33,195 nucleotides of DNA from IMG/VR virus record IMGVR_UViG_3300009167_000021, positions 1 through 33,195 of that record; one strand, written 5' to 3'. Position 1 is the stretch's first letter. Each line of letters starts with the position of its first letter. A model generated the notes under the pieces. That model saw nothing but the letters and a program-made list of their open reading frames with translations. It made no database searches and was not told the origin of the DNA. Source of the stretch: a virus. Positions 18,358 through 31,084 of this stretch are shown one piece after another. A program made the position numbers and the translations under genes.

Positions 18358-18559
18358 GAGGTTTGGACTTCACCTTCAACTGAACCGGTTGGCCGTCGAT
18401 GGAGAATGTGACGGTGCTAACGTCGTCTTTAACGACGCGCAATAATCTGACCCACTGCGACAGGCCGAGGTGCACCACGTTACCGTCCCGTCGAACGCGT
18501 CTGAACGGCATCTGAAGCGCCTGCCCGTTTCCCAAATTAACGAGAATTGTGGTCGTCAC
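18341..18559 (-). CDS. Small beta-rich protein, function unknown
   Basis: The 72-residue product (MTTTILVNLGNGQALQMPFR start, VTFSIDGQPVQLKVKSKP end) is basic and beta-rich, like small nucleic-acid-associated proteins, but no known fold is visible. It overlaps the exonuclease stop by four bases. Function unknown. Confidence 0.6.
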   Translation of the reverse strand: MTTTILVNLGNGQALQMPFRRVRRDGNVVHLGLSQWVRLLRVVKDDVSTVTFSIDGQPVQLKVKSKPHERSA

Positions 18560-19707
18560 AACTCCTCGATGCTCCCCGCACTTTCTTTGGGCTCAATGAA
18601 TCCATCCAGCGCCTTCCGAACCCATTCCTTCGCTGCCTTCTCTGATGACAGGTTCTTCTGCACTCGCACGAACTTCGCCAGATCCTCTTTGCCCATGGAC
18701 AGACAGGCCCAAAGACCGTCCTCCTCGAATCCGTCGCCTTTCAGGAATTCGAATGCTTCCTTGACCAGCACGATTGGATCCAGTGCCCGGCCCTTTCCGA
18801 CTTTGAGTCCAAGGGCGGCGAGTTCTTCTGGTGGCATCTTCTTCAAGCGCGAGACAACGGCGTCCAGAATCTTTTCCACGATGCTCTTGGATTGCCAGAG
18901 GCGCTTCAGGTCTGCGCCAACCATCCTGTCAACAGCCGCTTCGATGTCGGCCTTCTTCACTGCGCCATCGGCAATGACCGACGGCAGAAGCGAGTACGCG
19001 CCCGCGCTCCGGCAGTAGCTTTTGCCTGGGCAATAGTTGCAGTGCGGCCCGGGGATCAGCGGCGCGTCCTCCTGCTCCATCTGCCACAGGTGGTACATGA
19101 TATGCCGGTCTGCGTTCTCCAGGTCGTTCAGAGTGTAATCGCAATAGTCCCCTGCGCCGACCTTCAACCGGGCCTTGCAGTGCGCCACACGGAGGCGCCG
19201 AATCTCGGGACGTTCTTTCCAGAGGCAAACGCCCTGCACGCGCAGTTGTGTCGAGCGCGGCGAAGGCACGAGTTTCTTCACCCAACCGCTCTTCAGATCC
19301 ACGATCAACGCCGCATCCTGAGAACAGAAATGCCGGTCCAGTTTGGCACTGGTCAGCGGTTCGAGTGTGTCAGGGTGCCGGTACCATAGCCTTTCTTCGC
19401 GTGGCCCTTCCTCGCAATCGGGCAGGTTGTAATCCCGCATCCAGCCCTGGACGAGTTGGTCGAGGAACTTAAGACCCTGGTTGTAGACCTCCAGTTGTTC
19501 CTCGGACAACGGCAGCGTGTTACCGGTCTCGAAGGCTTGGTGGATCAGCGTGCCTTCGTCAGCGTCCGGCCCGGCCGGGGAAGACAATACCTCGGCGGGG
19601 AGGGTCGCACACAGCTTTTTCTTGCCGGGACAGGACCAGCCTGCGTTATCGCTGGCAGAGATTAGTCCCAGGCGTTCGTCGTCTTGGTCGAGGGGCTGTC
19701 GGTTCAT
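18556..19707 (-). CDS. Cas4/RecB-like PD-(D/E)XK exonuclease (DUF2800-like)
   Basis: The 383-residue protein has the PD-(D/E)XK order: GTLIHQAFE with H56, D124 in SAKLDRHF, D137 and K139 in VDLKSGW, then a Q/R helix near 154-158. One Cys near the N-terminus (C26) and three after the core (C223-x2-C226-x5-C232) match the four-Cys [4Fe-4S] layout of Cas4 and AddB nucleases. The DUF2800 group of phage exonucleases looks like this. It sits with the annealing-protein candidate, so the two may act as a Red-like recombination pair. Confidence 0.85.
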   Translation of the reverse strand: MNRQPLDQDDERLGLISASDNAGWSCPGKKKLCATLPAEVLSSPAGPDADEGTLIHQAFETGNTLPLSEEQLEVYNQGLKFLDQLVQGWMRDYNLPDCEEGPREERLWYRHPDTLEPLTSAKLDRHFCSQDAALIVDLKSGWVKKLVPSPRSTQLRVQGVCLWKERPEIRRLRVAHCKARLKVGAGDYCDYTLNDLENADRHIMYHLWQMEQEDAPLIPGPHCNYCPGKSYCRSAGAYSLLPSVIADGAVKKADIEAAVDRMVGADLKRLWQSKSIVEKILDAVVSRLKKMPPEELAALGLKVGKGRALDPIVLVKEAFEFLKGDGFEEDGLWACLSMGKEDLAKFVRVQKNLSSEKAAKEWVRKALDGFIEPKESAGSIEEL

Positions 19708-23211: not shown

Positions 23212-23406
23212 TTACTTCTGTTTTTCCCAGATCGCTTTGCTGTCCTCGGTCCGAACCCAACGGTAACCTTGGCAGATGGCTTTTTCGAGGAGTCTAGCCG
23301 GTTGGTCGCTGGCAAGGTAAGCATCCGGGTTTTCTTCTGCGTCATGCGCAAACATGGCGTAACAAATCTCTGCGTCGATGACGATGTAGTCGTAGTGAGG
23401 CGTCAT
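23212..23406 (-). CDS. Small protein, function unknown
   Basis: The 64-residue product (MTPHYDYIVIDAEICYAMFA at the start, GYRWVRTEDSKAIW near the end) overlaps the DUF7694 gene by four bases, so the two are likely translated together. It is the last gene before the structured gap. No domain recognised. Confidence 0.6.
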   Translation of the reverse strand: MTPHYDYIVIDAEICYAMFAHDAEENPDAYLASDQPARLLEKAICQGYRWVRTEDSKAIWEKQK

Positions 23407-23894
23407 ATCGGCCTCTGTTTTGATTTGCCTACAGTCACACTGCCGTCGTTGACCAGCCGTTCAGTGAACCCAAACGGGAAACGGTATGCCGGATCCGAAA
23501 CACACCAGAGCCAATACTGGTTGCTTGAGTCCACCAACCGGGACTCCGCCGGGTACAACTGCACTGCTTCGCACTCCGGCCCGACCAGTTGATTCTTGAT
23601 CGCTTGAAAATCCCGCCAGTCATTACAGGGTTCCCTGTCGTTGCGTTTGATGCTGAGGACCACAAGGCCCTCCGGATGACGCCGGAAGCCGACTTGGTAA
23701 GTCTCGTTGCGCCATTGTTCCATGTCGCGCTCGCGGTCCACGAACTCACGGACCAGTTGTTCGATGGTTTCGTCGGTCGCGCCAGGAAAAGCGTTGCGAA
23801 ACTCAGGTACGCCTTCACGCCATTTCTTTACGACATCGGCGCGGATAAGTTCGTACTCGGACTCGGGGATGTATGCTTCTTCGAGTGGGTTCAT
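23403..23894 (-). CDS. DUF7694-like protein
   Basis: The 163-residue protein has an N-terminal helical part (residues 1-70) and a C-terminal domain matching the DUF7694 pattern: VLSIKRNDREPCNDWRDFQA, KNQLVGPECEAVQLYPAESR, then QYWLWCV and FPFGF-ERLV. The family is widespread in phages and mobile elements without a known role. It overlaps both neighbours by four bases. Confidence 0.75.
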   Translation of the reverse strand: MNPLEEAYIPESEYELIRADVVKKWREGVPEFRNAFPGATDETIEQLVREFVDRERDMEQWRNETYQVGFRRHPEGLVVLSIKRNDREPCNDWRDFQAIKNQLVGPECEAVQLYPAESRLVDSSNQYWLWCVSDPAYRFPFGFTERLVNDGSVTVGKSKQRPI

Positions 23895-25743: not shown

Positions 25744-26091
25744 TTAATCCTCCCTCAAATCGAACACGCGGCGCCGCCCGGCTGCCTGGGCGCTGAGATT
25801 CGGTTGTGTCATGCCCGGCACCGCAAGGCGCGGCAGGTTGCGGCGCACTGGCGCCACACTGACGATCTCAGCGTAGCGCACCGTTCTTGTTGCGTGCGTC
25901 TCCGCAAGCCCGGCCTCGTGGTCCCTCACGTGTTTGCAGGTGCGCTCTCCGGTCGCGGTCACTTTCCTTTTGAATTTCCAGCCGGGACACTCACAAGACG
26001 TGGTACCGTCTACGTAAACGAGAGTTTGATAAAACTTGTCCGGAGTGCTTTCGCTGCGGAACACGTACACTATGGCGATCTCTTTTGGCAT
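25744..26091 (-). CDS. SWIM-type zinc-finger protein
   Basis: The 115-residue product has the SWIM signature C-x-C-x16-C-x-H (C33, C35, C52, H54) in TTSCECPGWKFKRKV and GERTCKHVRD. SWIM fingers bind DNA or proteins in transposases, SNF2 proteins and recombination factors. The N-terminal 30 residues are a short beta sheet. The C-terminus ends GRRRVFDLRED, related to the RKFDL ends of two other operon proteins. The start carries the AAAGGATC leader. Confidence 0.75.
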   Translation of the reverse strand: MPKEIAIVYVFRSESTPDKFYQTLVYVDGTTSCECPGWKFKRKVTATGERTCKHVRDHEAGLAETHATRTVRYAEIVSVAPVRRNLPRLAVPGMTQPNLSAQAAGRRRVFDLRED

Positions 26092-27817: not shown

Positions 27818-28858
27818 CTATGCTGCAACAGCCTCGCCCGCTGGGGCGGCTTCGGTGTCTTCCGACAAATCGAACTTGCGGGACTTGCGGTCTACGATCA
27901 TACCGTCAAGGGCGGTCTGAACTTCGCGGAACTTGTTCGCGATCTGGTCTCTCACGTTCAGGTTCTTGCGCAGCTTTTCCGGGTCGGTGTCCTTGACGAT
28001 CTTTTGCGCCTTCTCTACCAGCGCCGCAAGTTCGGCATCGCCCAGGTTCTTGTCCTTGAACGTCGCGATAAAGTCTTCCACGTTCGCCACAAGCGTGTCC
28101 TTGAAGATCTTGGGCTTGGCGCCCGCCTCCACGGTCAAGCGCTCCACAAGATGATCAACCAACTCGGCGAAGCTCACCCGCAACGCTTCCCGCATCTGAT
28201 CGGCCGCGTTCACTAGCTTGCGTTCGAACTCCGCGACCTTCTCAGCCCGCAGCTCCGCGGGAAGATCCTCAGGCACGCCGATTGCCAAGTATTCCCAGTC
28301 GAGGGAGAACTTGCTGGCCGCTTCACTTGCGCCAGGGTAGTTACTCTCCACGTACAACGGCCCAAGTCCGCCCTTCTTGACGGGGGTGTCCTTCGCCCGC
28401 CGCTTGGCGTTCTGCCAGTCCGCCACGATTGCCGGGCGGTACTTGGTTTCGAGCTGAACCAGGGCGTCTTTCAGAAGCTCTTCAACTTCCGTGACAATGT
28501 CCTTCCGGCATCGGAACAGCCCTTCCTGAATGAAGCTTGGCTGCATTCGCCCCCGATACTTCCCACACAGTTTGTCTTTGATTTCGTTCAAGAAATCATT
28601 GACGTAATCTATCGGTTGACTGTCCATGAGTCTGACTGTGTGCTTGCACTTGTCAACGGCGCCCGCCGTCCGGACGCTGGAAACTGGTTGCCCGGGATCC
28701 GTGCTCTCATCCTCCCCTTCGGGCAGGTTCAAGAGTCGGATGTATTCCCTCACTGCGTTCCCGTTGGTAGCCTTGGCTGAGTTACCCCAGCGGTGGATTG
28801 AAAGCCGGAATAGGTAGCTATTCCGGAGGTCGTCTATGTTTACGAGTGTTGTCTGCAT
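27818..28858 (-). CDS. Large helical DUF3150-like protein beside the AAA+ module
   Basis: The 346-residue protein is mostly helical and highly charged. The start (SYLFRLSIHRWGNSAKATNG) and the later KYRPAIVADWQNAKRRAKD resemble the DUF3150 group, whose genes often sit beside MoxR-like AAA+ ATPases; this is a moderate-confidence match from memory. The last 20 residues carry RKFDLSEDTEAAP, related to two other operon proteins. The adjacent genes encode the AAA+ protein and its probable partners, so this may be a substrate, adaptor or structural partner. Confidence 0.6.
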   Translation of the reverse strand: MQTTLVNIDDLRNSYLFRLSIHRWGNSAKATNGNAVREYIRLLNLPEGEDESTDPGQPVSSVRTAGAVDKCKHTVRLMDSQPIDYVNDFLNEIKDKLCGKYRGRMQPSFIQEGLFRCRKDIVTEVEELLKDALVQLETKYRPAIVADWQNAKRRAKDTPVKKGGLGPLYVESNYPGASEAASKFSLDWEYLAIGVPEDLPAELRAEKVAEFERKLVNAADQMREALRVSFAELVDHLVERLTVEAGAKPKIFKDTLVANVEDFIATFKDKNLGDAELAALVEKAQKIVKDTDPEKLRKNLNVRDQIANKFREVQTALDGMIVDRKSRKFDLSEDTEAAPAGEAVAA

Positions 28859-28865
28859 TGGATTT

Positions 28866-28873
28866 GATCCTTT
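28866..28873 (-). promoter_or_regulatory. AAAGGATC leader for 27818-28858
   Basis: Minus-strand AAAGGATC seven bases before the ATG at 28858. Confidence 0.65.
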
Positions 28874-28893
28874 TGGTTAAGTGTGAACTTGGC

Positions 28894-28974
28894 CAGTGTC
28901 GTTTTAACACTGACGCGCCTACTGCCCGCAGCTTACCTCAGGGCTCCGGGCAGGTAGCGCGCCACTGTTGGCGC
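28894..28974 (-). promoter_or_regulatory. Three consecutive hairpins in a 116-base gap
   Basis: Minus-strand order: GCGCCA-stem hairpin copy 2 (28959-28974), CTGCCCG/CGGGCAG (28922-28928 with 28947-28953), and CAGTGT/ACACTG (28894-28899 with 28907-28912). They sit between the DUF2997-like stop and the leader of the 27818-28858 gene, so they could modulate read-through or translation. Confidence 0.5.
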
Positions 28975-29223
28975 CTAGTGTGTGTGACCGTCCGACGCGT
29001 GCGCCTCTAGCGCCGCGTGTATGTGTGCATGCGTGCCCTTAAGCTTGATCTCAGTGGTCCCGCCCGCCAGCCGTGACAGTTCCCGCAAGAACGCTTCAGC
29101 GTTGGCGTGATTCGGTCCGGATATGATCCCCGTATCGGTCCGGATTCTGCCATCTTCCAATACTTGGATCCGGAGAATATCGCCCCCAGGCTTGCGGACT
29201 TCAAAACAGATAGGCGCGCTCAT
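28975..29223 (-). CDS. DUF2997-like small protein with His-rich tail
   Basis: From ATG 29223, preceded by GAGGAGG, the product is 82 residues. Residues 5-60 follow the DUF2997 pattern: I-x-F-E-V near the start, a G-x-ILRIQVLEDGRIRTDTG strand pair, ISGPN and a helix (AEAFLRELSRLAG). The last 20 residues contain several His (HAHIHAALEAHASDGHTH), a possible metal-binding tail. DUF2997 genes are often seen beside DUF1257 and AAA+ genes, as here. It overlaps the DUF1257-like gene by four bases. Confidence 0.65.
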   Translation of the reverse strand: MSAPICFEVRKPGGDILRIQVLEDGRIRTDTGIISGPNHANAEAFLRELSRLAGGTTEIKLKGTHAHIHAALEAHASDGHTH

Positions 29224-29546
29224 GACACCCTCCTCACTGCCCAAGCGGGCTGGTCAACCTGTTTTGTTACCCACCCAAACCGCGCAAAGCGCCTCGCGGT
29301 ATCTCTCACTACAGCGGCGCCATAAGCCTGTTTGATCTCGTTTACGTCGCGACTGCTCGCGAACTGGCTTTGACCGGTGGCAACGTCAATCCACTCTCCC
29401 CGGCCAAAATGAATTCGCCCCTTGTCCACACTGCGGATAAAGGCGCCCAGGTGCAGATCGTTCAGCGCCGCCAGCATCAAATCCGGGTTAATCCGCCCGA
29501 CGCTGGAAAGGTCTACGCTAATCGTTCTAATGCTATCGCATGGCAT
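29220..29546 (-). CDS. Ycf35/DUF1257-like protein
   Basis: The 108-residue protein starts MPCDSIRTISVDLSS and includes LMLAALNDLHLGAF, a beta part (GRIHFGRGEWIDV) and a C-terminal EIKQAYGAAVVRDTARRFAR followed by FGWVTKQ and a terminal AVRRVS. This is the DUF1257 (Ycf35) layout: N-terminal L-x-x-AL-x-x-L, then an I-x-x-x-Y helix followed by a GF/GW strand. The neighbours are a Ycf46-like AAA+ protein and a DUF2997-like protein, the set found together in cyanobacteria and other bacteria. Confidence 0.65.
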   Translation of the reverse strand: MPCDSIRTISVDLSSVGRINPDLMLAALNDLHLGAFIRSVDKGRIHFGRGEWIDVATGQSQFASSRDVNEIKQAYGAAVVRDTARRFARFGWVTKQVDQPAWAVRRVS

Positions 29547-29548
29547 AG

Positions 29549-31084
29549 TTAATCCTGGGTTGTGATTTTCCGGCCTACTGGCGCCGCCCCGACGGCCTCA
29601 CCGGCACTGTAGCGGTATTTCCCGGGCAGACTGGCACTGAGGAACCGATTATGCGCGAGCTTGCGCAGTGCCTCAACGGCCTCCGGGGCAGACTGGCACA
29701 CCGGGACAACATTGTCGGCGGCATCGACCAGGGACAGCCCGGCCCGAAACGCCACGTCGCAGCATGCCCTGATTTCCGCCCCCGTCCATCCGTTGCACTC
29801 AGGCAAGGCTTGCTGCGGGTCCAACCTGAACCGCTTGATCCATATAGGCCAGATCGTAGCCCTTTCCTCCGCCGTCGGAAGGTCAAAGAAGAAGGTCCCC
29901 ATTGTATAACGGCGCCTCAACTCCGGCGGGAGACTGGTAATCTTGTTGCACGTCGCAAGGATCATGCCCTGGCGGTTGCTCACGCTCATGTAAATATCCA
30001 TCGCTGCCCGGATTCGGGCTTCGGAGTCGCCAACTATGCCCGCTTTCATGGCTCCGCAATCGAACGCTACGACCGGCACGTTTGCCAGATTGCCCGCTGC
30101 CTTCGCGACTTGGCTTTTCCCCGTGCCAGCATGGCCGACAAGTAGGATCCCCGGGATGTCGTAATCTTGCATGACTTTCAGGAACACTTGCAACTGGTCT
30201 TTGCTGACTCCGGAGTCCCCGCCCCCGTCGGTGGCGCCCGCGAGTCCCTTTTCAATCTCGTCGACAAACCCCAGCGCGCCCACCTTGGTATTGCCAGACG
30301 TGAGAATGCACGTGAGATAACGCTTCAGGCGGTCTAGCCCGCCAATATCCGCGAACGTTTCACCCCCGCGCCAGACGCTCAAACCTGGGGTTTGCTCAAT
30401 CATCTTGACCTTGCGCGCCCACAGGCTATCAGGGTCGAGCCCTGCCCGCGTCACGGAAACCGCGGTAACCTGTTCGACCGCGAACGCTGACAGCCCTGTT
30501 AGCACATCCGCCGTCTTGTCCAACTCCGCCGGTGGCGCAATCTCAGCATCCTTGCATACGCTCTGCACGATCTCTGAGATTTCCGCTGAGTCTGGCAACG
30601 CCTCACTACTGACCATTACGTCTTGCTTCAGCTCCGGCGGCAGTGTCAACGCTGGCCCGAGGAGAACCAGCAAGGCATGGCGCCCTTTCAAGGCGTCGCG
30701 GCAATTCCAGACGGCCTGCATCACGGTCGTCTCAGATATGAATCGTTGCGCATTGTGCATGAAGCAGACGGTCTCCGCCGGAGCTTTCGCCGCCAGGGCG
30801 GAAAGCGCTTCGGTCGGATTAGTCAGGGGGATCCCGTCGTTCCCGCCAACCTCGCGGACGGCATCGCCCGAAACGTCATTGTAGGCCCGGCCGCTTGCCG
30901 GATCCGTGACCTCAGAAAATGCTCGAACAACATCCCATTGAATCAACGGGACAGATTCGAGCTTGCCATTCATGGCCCGAACCGCATTCAAGATCGTGCG
31001 GGCGGGATCCGCGGTCTCCAGTCCCGCAATGGGCACGCCAGCCCGCCGCCAGGGCTTGATCGGATGACTTTGAACGTTACGCAT
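29549..31084 (-). CDS. Ycf46-like AAA+ ATPase with permuted Walker motifs
   Basis: The 511-residue protein has an N-terminal part (about 15-230) like the degenerate ATPase domain of Ycf46 (ALLVLLGPALTLPPELKQDV). The AAA+ core follows, but in an unusual order. Walker B (LGFVDEIEK, 271-279) and its following helix (GVSKDQLQVFLKVMQ) come first; then Walker A (GHAGTGKS, 317-324), VGDSEARIR (351-359), sensor 1 ATCN (377-380), PPELRRRY with the arginine-finger region (386-393) and the sensor-2 helix TGAEIRA (434-440). The frame is continuous, and the segment between VGDSE and sensor 1 is too short to hold another Walker B. The product probably remodels or loads partners encoded by the neighbouring genes. 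Confidence 0.85.
   Translation of the reverse strand: MRNVQSHPIKPWRRAGVPIAGLETADPARTILNAVRAMNGKLESVPLIQWDVVRAFSEVTDPASGRAYNDVSGDAVREVGGNDGIPLTNPTEALSALAAKAPAETVCFMHNAQRFISETTVMQAVWNCRDALKGRHALLVLLGPALTLPPELKQDVMVSSEALPDSAEISEIVQSVCKDAEIAPPAELDKTADVLTGLSAFAVEQVTAVSVTRAGLDPDSLWARKVKMIEQTPGLSVWRGGETFADIGGLDRLKRYLTCILTSGNTKVGALGFVDEIEKGLAGATDGGGDSGVSKDQLQVFLKVMQDYDIPGILLVGHAGTGKSQVAKAAGNLANVPVVAFDCGAMKAGIVGDSEARIRAAMDIYMSVSNRQGMILATCNKITSLPPELRRRYTMGTFFFDLPTAEERATIWPIWIKRFRLDPQQALPECNGWTGAEIRACCDVAFRAGLSLVDAADNVVPVCQSAPEAVEALRKLAHNRFLSASLPGKYRYSAGEAVGAAPVGRKITTQD

Follow-up and report, generated by a model that had tools for sequence, protein, structure and literature searches.

Described relatives of the locus

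AAA+ proteins are among the most-studied ATPases, and the order of the strands in their core is normally fixed. We analysed a stretch of 33,195 nucleotides from a virus (IMG/VR record IMGVR_UViG_3300009167_000021, called the window here), in which four genes encode an AAA+ ATPase with a rearranged core and proteins resembling the families DUF1257 (Ycf35), DUF2997 and DUF3150. The described relatives of this ATPase are the SpoVK/Ycf46-type AAA+ proteins of phages, plasmids, cyanobacteria and planctomycetes, which are homologous to it over their full length and many of which have the same partner families beside them. In these proteins Walker A precedes Walker B, whereas the window ATPase has the reverse order (beta3-alpha3 before beta1) and falls in a separate clade.

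The gene order AAA - DUF1257 - DUF2997 - DUF3150 is shared with a plasmid operon of Ca. Manganitrophus (CP114554), where the DUF families are annotated. That operon differs in having a small extra open reading frame (ORF) between the AAA and DUF1257 genes, an ATPase of canonical order, and partners of the subtype that we call type A below. An operon of IncC plasmids (AAA - hypothetical - DUF2997) contains a related ATPase, DUF1257-like and DUF2997 proteins and a larger downstream gene, but its ATPase is canonical and the large gene is unconfirmed as DUF3150. Tunturiibacter phage Tunturi_3 was the only isolate phage among 50,697 records with a permuted ATPase, 36% identical to that of the window over 94%. 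Its region gp103-gp96 shares the module, with DUF1257-like gp102, DUF2997-like gp101, gp99 from a further family described below, and DUF3150-like gp96; it differs from the window in its type A partners and its P-loop, GVPGVSKS. The main text of the Tunturi_3 paper does not contain the word 'ATPase' (PMC11924767). The gp96 gene (L004:11678-12637) is annotated as an HNH endonuclease, which is likely a misannotation, as the protein belongs to the DUF3150-like family.

In Synechocystis, genes for DUF2997 and Ycf35 are clustered with the ferredoxin gene fed7 (PMC4284462), and the gene for Ycf46, slr0374, belongs to a stress operon and affects CO2 use (PMC7496141); no mechanism was found for these genes. 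In the open-access papers searched, with most subscription journals lying outside the search, DUF3150 is not mentioned by name, and no AAA+ or P-loop ATPase with the present kind of permutation was found.

Motifs are reordered in nature, with function kept, in the circularly permuted P-loop GTPases RsgA/YjeQ and RbgA. Those are circular permutations of GTPases, whereas the window protein carries an exchange of internal blocks within an AAA+ domain. An old and widespread reordering that keeps all catalytic residues would show that the AAA+ fold tolerates re-wiring, and would offer a natural experiment on the role of connectivity in the power stroke. Related modules join phages, plasmids and cyanobacteria or plastids (Ycf46, Ycf35), and a culturable phage isolate makes their function testable.

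The ATPase core is permuted

The sequence-only reading had described the ATPase as permuted, and the motifs bear this out. In the window protein, FVDEIEK (Walker B, residues 273-279) is followed by GHAGTGKS (Walker A, 317-324) and then by ATCN (sensor 1, 377-380), and the strand-helix unit beta3-alpha3 with Walker B sits before beta1-alpha2 with Walker A in the catalytic AAA+ domain. Because the order of the motifs is changed, only the first 51 positions of the Pfam AAA model aligned to the window ATPase.

Relatives were collected from IMG/VR and from scans of bacterial genomes, with the window and Tunturi_3 sequences as guides and then with a larger alignment. A profile built from the 74 canonical relatives only matched the window ATPase in four non-collinear pieces, each with E<=3.3e-9: query residues 10-259 aligned with profile positions 10-240 (5e-35), 273-308 with 321-357 (3.3e-9), 312-368 with 259-315 (4.9e-18) and 372-493 with 360-496 (4.6e-32). 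With all four blocks matched (5e-35 to 3.3e-9), the protein is homologous to canonical Ycf46-like proteins over its full length. Non-collinear alignment to this profile was obtained for 80 of 81 permuted proteins and for none of the 74 canonical ones. The canonical order of Walker A, Walker B and sensor 1 was rejected for the window ATPase given these matches, and we conclude that it is a permuted variant, homologous by sequence and fold but with changed connectivity, and not an ordinary AAA+ member. PHROG 8638 contains relatives of the ATPase (85 of 86 members matching); this family seems to be built on the canonical order, as it matches the window protein in several pieces.

By the motif test, the permuted order occurs at a minimum of 106 loci (>=106), mostly on viral contigs; four further loci with variant Walker B motifs (DEGEK, DEGDK, DEFEK and DEAEK) were recognised by eye. 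The window comes from a metagenomic virus record, and the permutation might accordingly be suspected of being an artefact of assembly or gene rearrangement. The order is, however, shared by these loci in many separate assemblies, in single open frames at ~27-50% identity, and the isolate genome of Tunturi_3 has it too. The isolate and the independent contigs refute an artefact, and we give that explanation practically no weight. Both the permutation and the four-gene module are well supported.

In a tree calculated from a block-wise alignment, one branch (support 0.98) separated 81 non-redundant permuted proteins from 74 canonical ones. This clean split is most simply read as the trace of a permutation that probably arose once. 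The gene probably passed through a stage in which the beta1-alpha3 block was duplicated in tandem, and was then trimmed from either end. The swapped segments should start and finish at one edge of the 5-1-4-3-2 sheet, and this shared edge probably makes it possible to re-wire the chain while leaving the active-site residues in place.

Catalytic residues and a two-tier architecture

Walker A, Walker B, sensor 1 and the arginine finger, by which AAA+ proteins are recognised, are all conserved in the window ATPase. Across 86 sequences, D275 and E276 of Walker B, K323 of Walker A, N380 of sensor 1 and R392 are invariant; T378 is invariant as well, and R391 is present in at least 90%.

An AlphaFold2 model calculated from an alignment of 86 permuted sequences only was of high quality (predicted local distance difference test, pLDDT, 93.1; predicted template modelling score, pTM, 0.87). 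Its secondary structure runs beta3 (270-274), alpha3, beta1 (312-317), alpha1, beta2, alpha2 and beta4 (373-379), the relocated unit comprising the strand 270-274 and helices 277-285 and 293-307. The whole model matched the p97 D1-D2 tandem with a VIA Z of 19.1 (402 residues, 5.0 A). In the C-terminal half, 204 residues superposed on p97 D2 at 2.5 A, with a Z of 16.7; matches to single domains of p97/Cdc48 and Vps4 reached Z ~17. The residues omitted by the aligner, which seems bound to chain order, were about as many as make up the relocated unit. Models of phage Ycf46-like proteins gave template modelling scores of 0.62-0.67 to the window ATPase. Despite this two-tier likeness, p97/Cdc48 and Vps4 differ from the window protein in their canonical connectivity, in the active D1 of p97, and in sequence (15-20% identity). 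We read the first half of the window ATPase as a degenerate D1 because it has no P-loop. As judged from sequence and model, the protein is a two-tier, Cdc48-like AAA+ ATPase with a degenerate first domain and a permuted second domain that bears every catalytic signature. It is likely to assemble as a hexamer and to hydrolyse ATP, and the fold together with the conservation of the catalytic residues is our reason for calling it a motor.

A recurrent module with DUF1257-, DUF2997- and DUF3150-like partners

Clustering of the genes around the ATPases yielded four recurrent families, three of which are named by Pfam in relatives. With refined profiles, DUF3150 was found at 67, DUF1257 at 66 and DUF2997 at 67 of 72 permuted loci with >=4 kb of sequence downstream. 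The co-occurrence of these families in related genomes, which the sequence-only reading had offered as a check, is thus strong.

The proposed assignment of the set to Ycf46, Ycf35 (DUF1257), DUF2997 and DUF3150 holds at the level of superfamilies, with a mixed outcome for the hidden Markov models of the three partners. Single-protein scans of the window's own DUF-like proteins against Pfam, PHROG and NCBIfam gave no partner family, and none of the Pfam models PF06868 (DUF1257), PF11211 (DUF2997) and PF11348 (DUF3150) matched its window protein directly. Proteins at equivalent loci did match Pfam, in 13 of 17 cases for DUF1257, 14 of 17 for DUF2997 and 14 of 27 for DUF3150. The window DUF3150-like protein matched the profile of its relatives at 2.3e-59, and the 14 of 27 proteins in that profile that match PF11348 do so with a best value of 1.3e-20. 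For the two small partners we compared the window's subtype (type B) with type A by profile-profile alignment in hhalign, which gave 96.3% (1.5e-9) for DUF1257, with decoys at <=0.5%, and 92.0% (6.6e-7) for DUF2997, with decoys at <=0.2%; the controls, five column-shuffled decoys and cross-family comparisons, all stayed at <=4.5%. On these profile comparisons, types A and B are homologous within DUF1257 and within DUF2997. Since this is remote homology and a Pfam match is absent, the window proteins are called 'DUF1257-like' and 'DUF2997-like' and not Pfam members. The large helical partner predicted from the letters agrees with the AlphaFold2 model of the DUF3150-like protein, which is mostly helical (pLDDT 87.7).

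The fourth recurrent family, a fifth gene of the module, encodes ~85 residues with the pattern RASHVEP...SPVGGP.LGPF...ALxAExxWL (for example L195:8429-8680 and L004:10640-10969) and had no match in Pfam. It was present at 33 of 42 type A loci and at 0 of 30 type B loci, and it also stands beside many canonical ATPases. A search for it in the window was negative, in line with the type B loci.

Two matched subtypes of the DUF1257/DUF2997 pair

At the 72 loci with both genes, 42 pairs were A/A, 30 were B/B, and none was mixed; the window pair is type B. Type B DUF1257 proteins have Pro-Cys at residues 2-3 (30/30), and their DUF2997 partners have Asn-His (27/31) and a His-rich tail, with a median of ~6 His in the last 35 residues as against 0-2 in nearly all type A proteins. 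Type A DUF1257 proteins usually start Met-Ser-His (23 of 42 read as SH), and type A DUF2997 proteins have a Cys (42/42 on inspection). A subgroup of type A starts SK or SA, without the His.

Parsimony places ~16 switches of subtype on the ATPase tree, which is a rough figure. Type B pairs also adjoin three canonical ATPases (L075, L078 and L084), and we rejected on this ground the idea that type B partners are exclusive to permuted ATPases. Never mixed in spite of these switches, and found beside ATPases of both orders, the pair travels as a unit: by these sequence comparisons, it is inherited as a matched set, largely independently of the ATPase. The never-mixed subtypes predict a direct DUF1257-DUF2997 complex, for which they are good evidence at the sequence level. 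That a Cys and a His appear to have been traded between the two proteins hints at a site common to both, although the SK/SA subgroup weakens the case for a strict exchange of ligands.

These residues bear on an alternative in which the ATPase inserts or removes a metal centre or cofactor, in the manner of CobS/CobT or MoxR-VWA, and the DUF1257-DUF2997 pair is the metal site. Ser-His with a DUF2997 Cys in type A, against Pro-Cys with Asn-His and a His tail in type B, looks as if ligands had been swapped, and the clustering with fed7 in Synechocystis (PMC4284462) would suit such a role. Yet the SK/SA subgroup has no His, type A DUF2997 proteins have no His-rich tail, and the profile-profile alignment puts the Asn-His not exactly on the Cys. 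The motor, moreover, resembles p97/Vps4 and not the chelatases, and no VWA partner was seen. We consider a metal machine unlikely.

Proposed function and genomic context

The reading that we prefer, and hold with moderate confidence on the basis of sequences and models, takes the product of the locus for an ATP-driven machine that remodels proteins, encoded in early replication/recombination operons of phages and mobile elements. The DUF1257-DUF2997 pair would probably combine into one small composite unit bearing a Cys/His site, and together with the DUF3150 protein it would act as adaptor, substrate head or regulator of the motor. More tentatively, the target might be a protein or nucleoprotein complex that serves replication/recombination in phages or plasmids. 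This is suggested by the genes that the modules adjoin, which encode RecT, YqaJ, SSB, DNA polymerase A, Gp157 and PD-(D/E)XK nucleases, and by the position of the present module at the head of the phage's replication/recombination strand. UDG, archaeo-eukaryotic primase and PRTRC E genes also occur near permuted ATPases. There is an even chance, in our judgement, that the broader proposition holds, namely that an AAA+ domain permuted in nature by a single event of internal block exchange is catalytically active, has become fixed throughout a large clade from phages and other mobile elements, and works with a Cys/His-exchanging DUF1257-DUF2997 factor in two interchangeable subtypes. The sequence-only reading had suggested remodelling or host control; the fold agrees with the former, and the latter found no specific support.

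Several observations weigh against the remodelling machine. The recombination-gene neighbourhood may be mere clustering of early genes. Loci were chosen by their ATPase motifs, and all frequencies are conditional on detection of the ATPase, with the counts being lower bounds. The DUF3150 model matched only generic helical bundles among solved structures (best VIA Z 8.9; Foldseek E 0.85), and a sequence search for solved relatives of DUF1257, DUF2997 and DUF3150 found none; the roles given to the partners are guesses for this reason. In ~40% of the non-redundant permuted proteins, Ala or Ser takes the place of the third P-loop Gly, and some members with an altered P-loop may bind ATP differently, although the window protein keeps GTGKS.

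The commonest permuted P-loop is GPPGAAKS (20 of 85 non-redundant proteins; GHAGTGKS in the window). This frequent Ala, with the permuted order, could give a non-cycling subunit, and the ATPase might then sabotage a host Ycf46-type machine as a dominant-negative subunit. The invariance of the Walker A Lys, the Walker B Asp-Glu, sensor 1 and the arginine finger speaks against this, as do the whole partner set held by the phage and the 16 full-length copies of the permuted ATPase in eight bacterial assemblies, and we regard sabotage as very improbable.

A defence or counter-defence system carried by the phage, IetA-like or toxin-antitoxin-like, seems distinctly unlikely to us. The top PADLOC match of the ATPase was IetA (6.7e-9), and the antitoxin of SGI1 is an AAA+ protein related to the SpoVK/Ycf46/Vps4 superfamily (PMC10954446). 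The IetA match covers mainly the P-loop segment, however, the module has no gene for an S8 protease or another effector next to it, and its regular partners are DUF1257, DUF2997 and DUF3150. An IetAS system proper was rejected, the IetA match being partial and the four proteins including neither IetS nor another protease.

Some Acidobacteriota assemblies hold several full-length copies of the permuted ATPase each (G005 contigs C107, C145 and C129; G007:C7). A divergent coupling protein of 595-603 residues, similar to TraG/VirD4, is encoded 16-22 kb away from them. Terminase and HK97 capsid families were searched for on these contigs and none was found. These carriers are perhaps elements similar to integrative and conjugative or integrative and mobilizable elements, to judge by their gene content, and a distribution confined to phages was dropped as an explanation in view of the coupling-protein-like gene and the lack of the searched families. 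In five assemblies (G003:C221, G004:C5, G005:C129, G006:C4 and G007:C7), the permuted ATPase is accompanied, at a distance of 23-39 kb, by a second ATPase ORF of ~690 residues with two P-loop matches, like a Cdc48 tandem.

Layout of the gene set in the window

The four consecutive leftward genes first noticed in the window were recovered as minus-strand ORFs between 27818 and 31084 (Table 1).

Table 1. Coordinates of the module and of its parts in the window.
Feature	Positions	Strand	Basis
Permuted AAA+ ATPase (SpoVK/Ycf46-like), 511 aa	29549..31084	-	ORF; PHROG 8638 match 2.4e-47
N-terminal half of ATPase, ~residues 1-235, read as degenerate AAA-like domain without P-loop, p97 D1 equivalent	30380..31084	-	p97 alignment; canonical-profile match
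Relocated beta3-alpha3 unit, Walker B, residues 270-308 (D275, E276)	30161..30277	-	canonical-profile match; model; conservation
beta1-alpha1-beta2-alpha2 unit, Walker A, residues 312-372	29969..30151	-	canonical-profile match; K323 invariant
Sensor 1 (ATCN 377-380) to arginine-finger pair (R391-R392)	29909..29956	-	conservation; canonical-profile match
DUF1257 (Ycf35)-like protein, type B, N-terminus Met-Pro-Cys, 108 aa	29220..29546	-	ORF; hhalign
DUF2997-like protein, type B, 82 aa from ATG	28975..29223	-	ATGA junction; hhalign
His-rich C-terminal tail of DUF2997-like protein	28978..29037	-	His count vs type A
116-nt gap before DUF3150-like start	28859..28974	-	junction reading; AT-rich inverted repeat inside
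DUF3150-like protein, mostly helical, 346 aa	27818..28858	-	relatives' profile match; AlphaFold2 model

Three of the genes are tightly joined, as had been noted: the ATPase and DUF1257-like genes are separated by 2 nt (TAAct-ATG), and the DUF1257-like and DUF2997-like genes overlap in ATGA. For the latter, a TTG start (89 residues) lies upstream of an ATG with a strong Shine-Dalgarno sequence, and the start is better placed at the ATG than at the listed TTG because of this sequence and the ATGA overlap. The only sizeable gap of the operon contains an AT-rich inverted repeat (28873-28896) just 5' of the DUF3150-like Shine-Dalgarno sequence, a possible regulatory hairpin that does not rise above the shuffle background. 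Promoter and terminator signals in the window were no more frequent than in shuffled sequence, and no convincing promoter was seen. The module lies on the same strand as genes for a PD-(D/E)XK exonuclease (18556-19707) and a DHH phosphoesterase, with the terminase on the opposite strand, and this layout makes its early expression plausible.

Two other minus-strand genes of the window have counterparts near permuted ATPases elsewhere. A small protein with a SWIM-like CxC...CKH motif (25744-26091) resembles a family found near them at 8 loci, and a DUF7694 protein (23403-23894; 2.1e-13) belongs to a family that is also present near other permuted ATPase loci.

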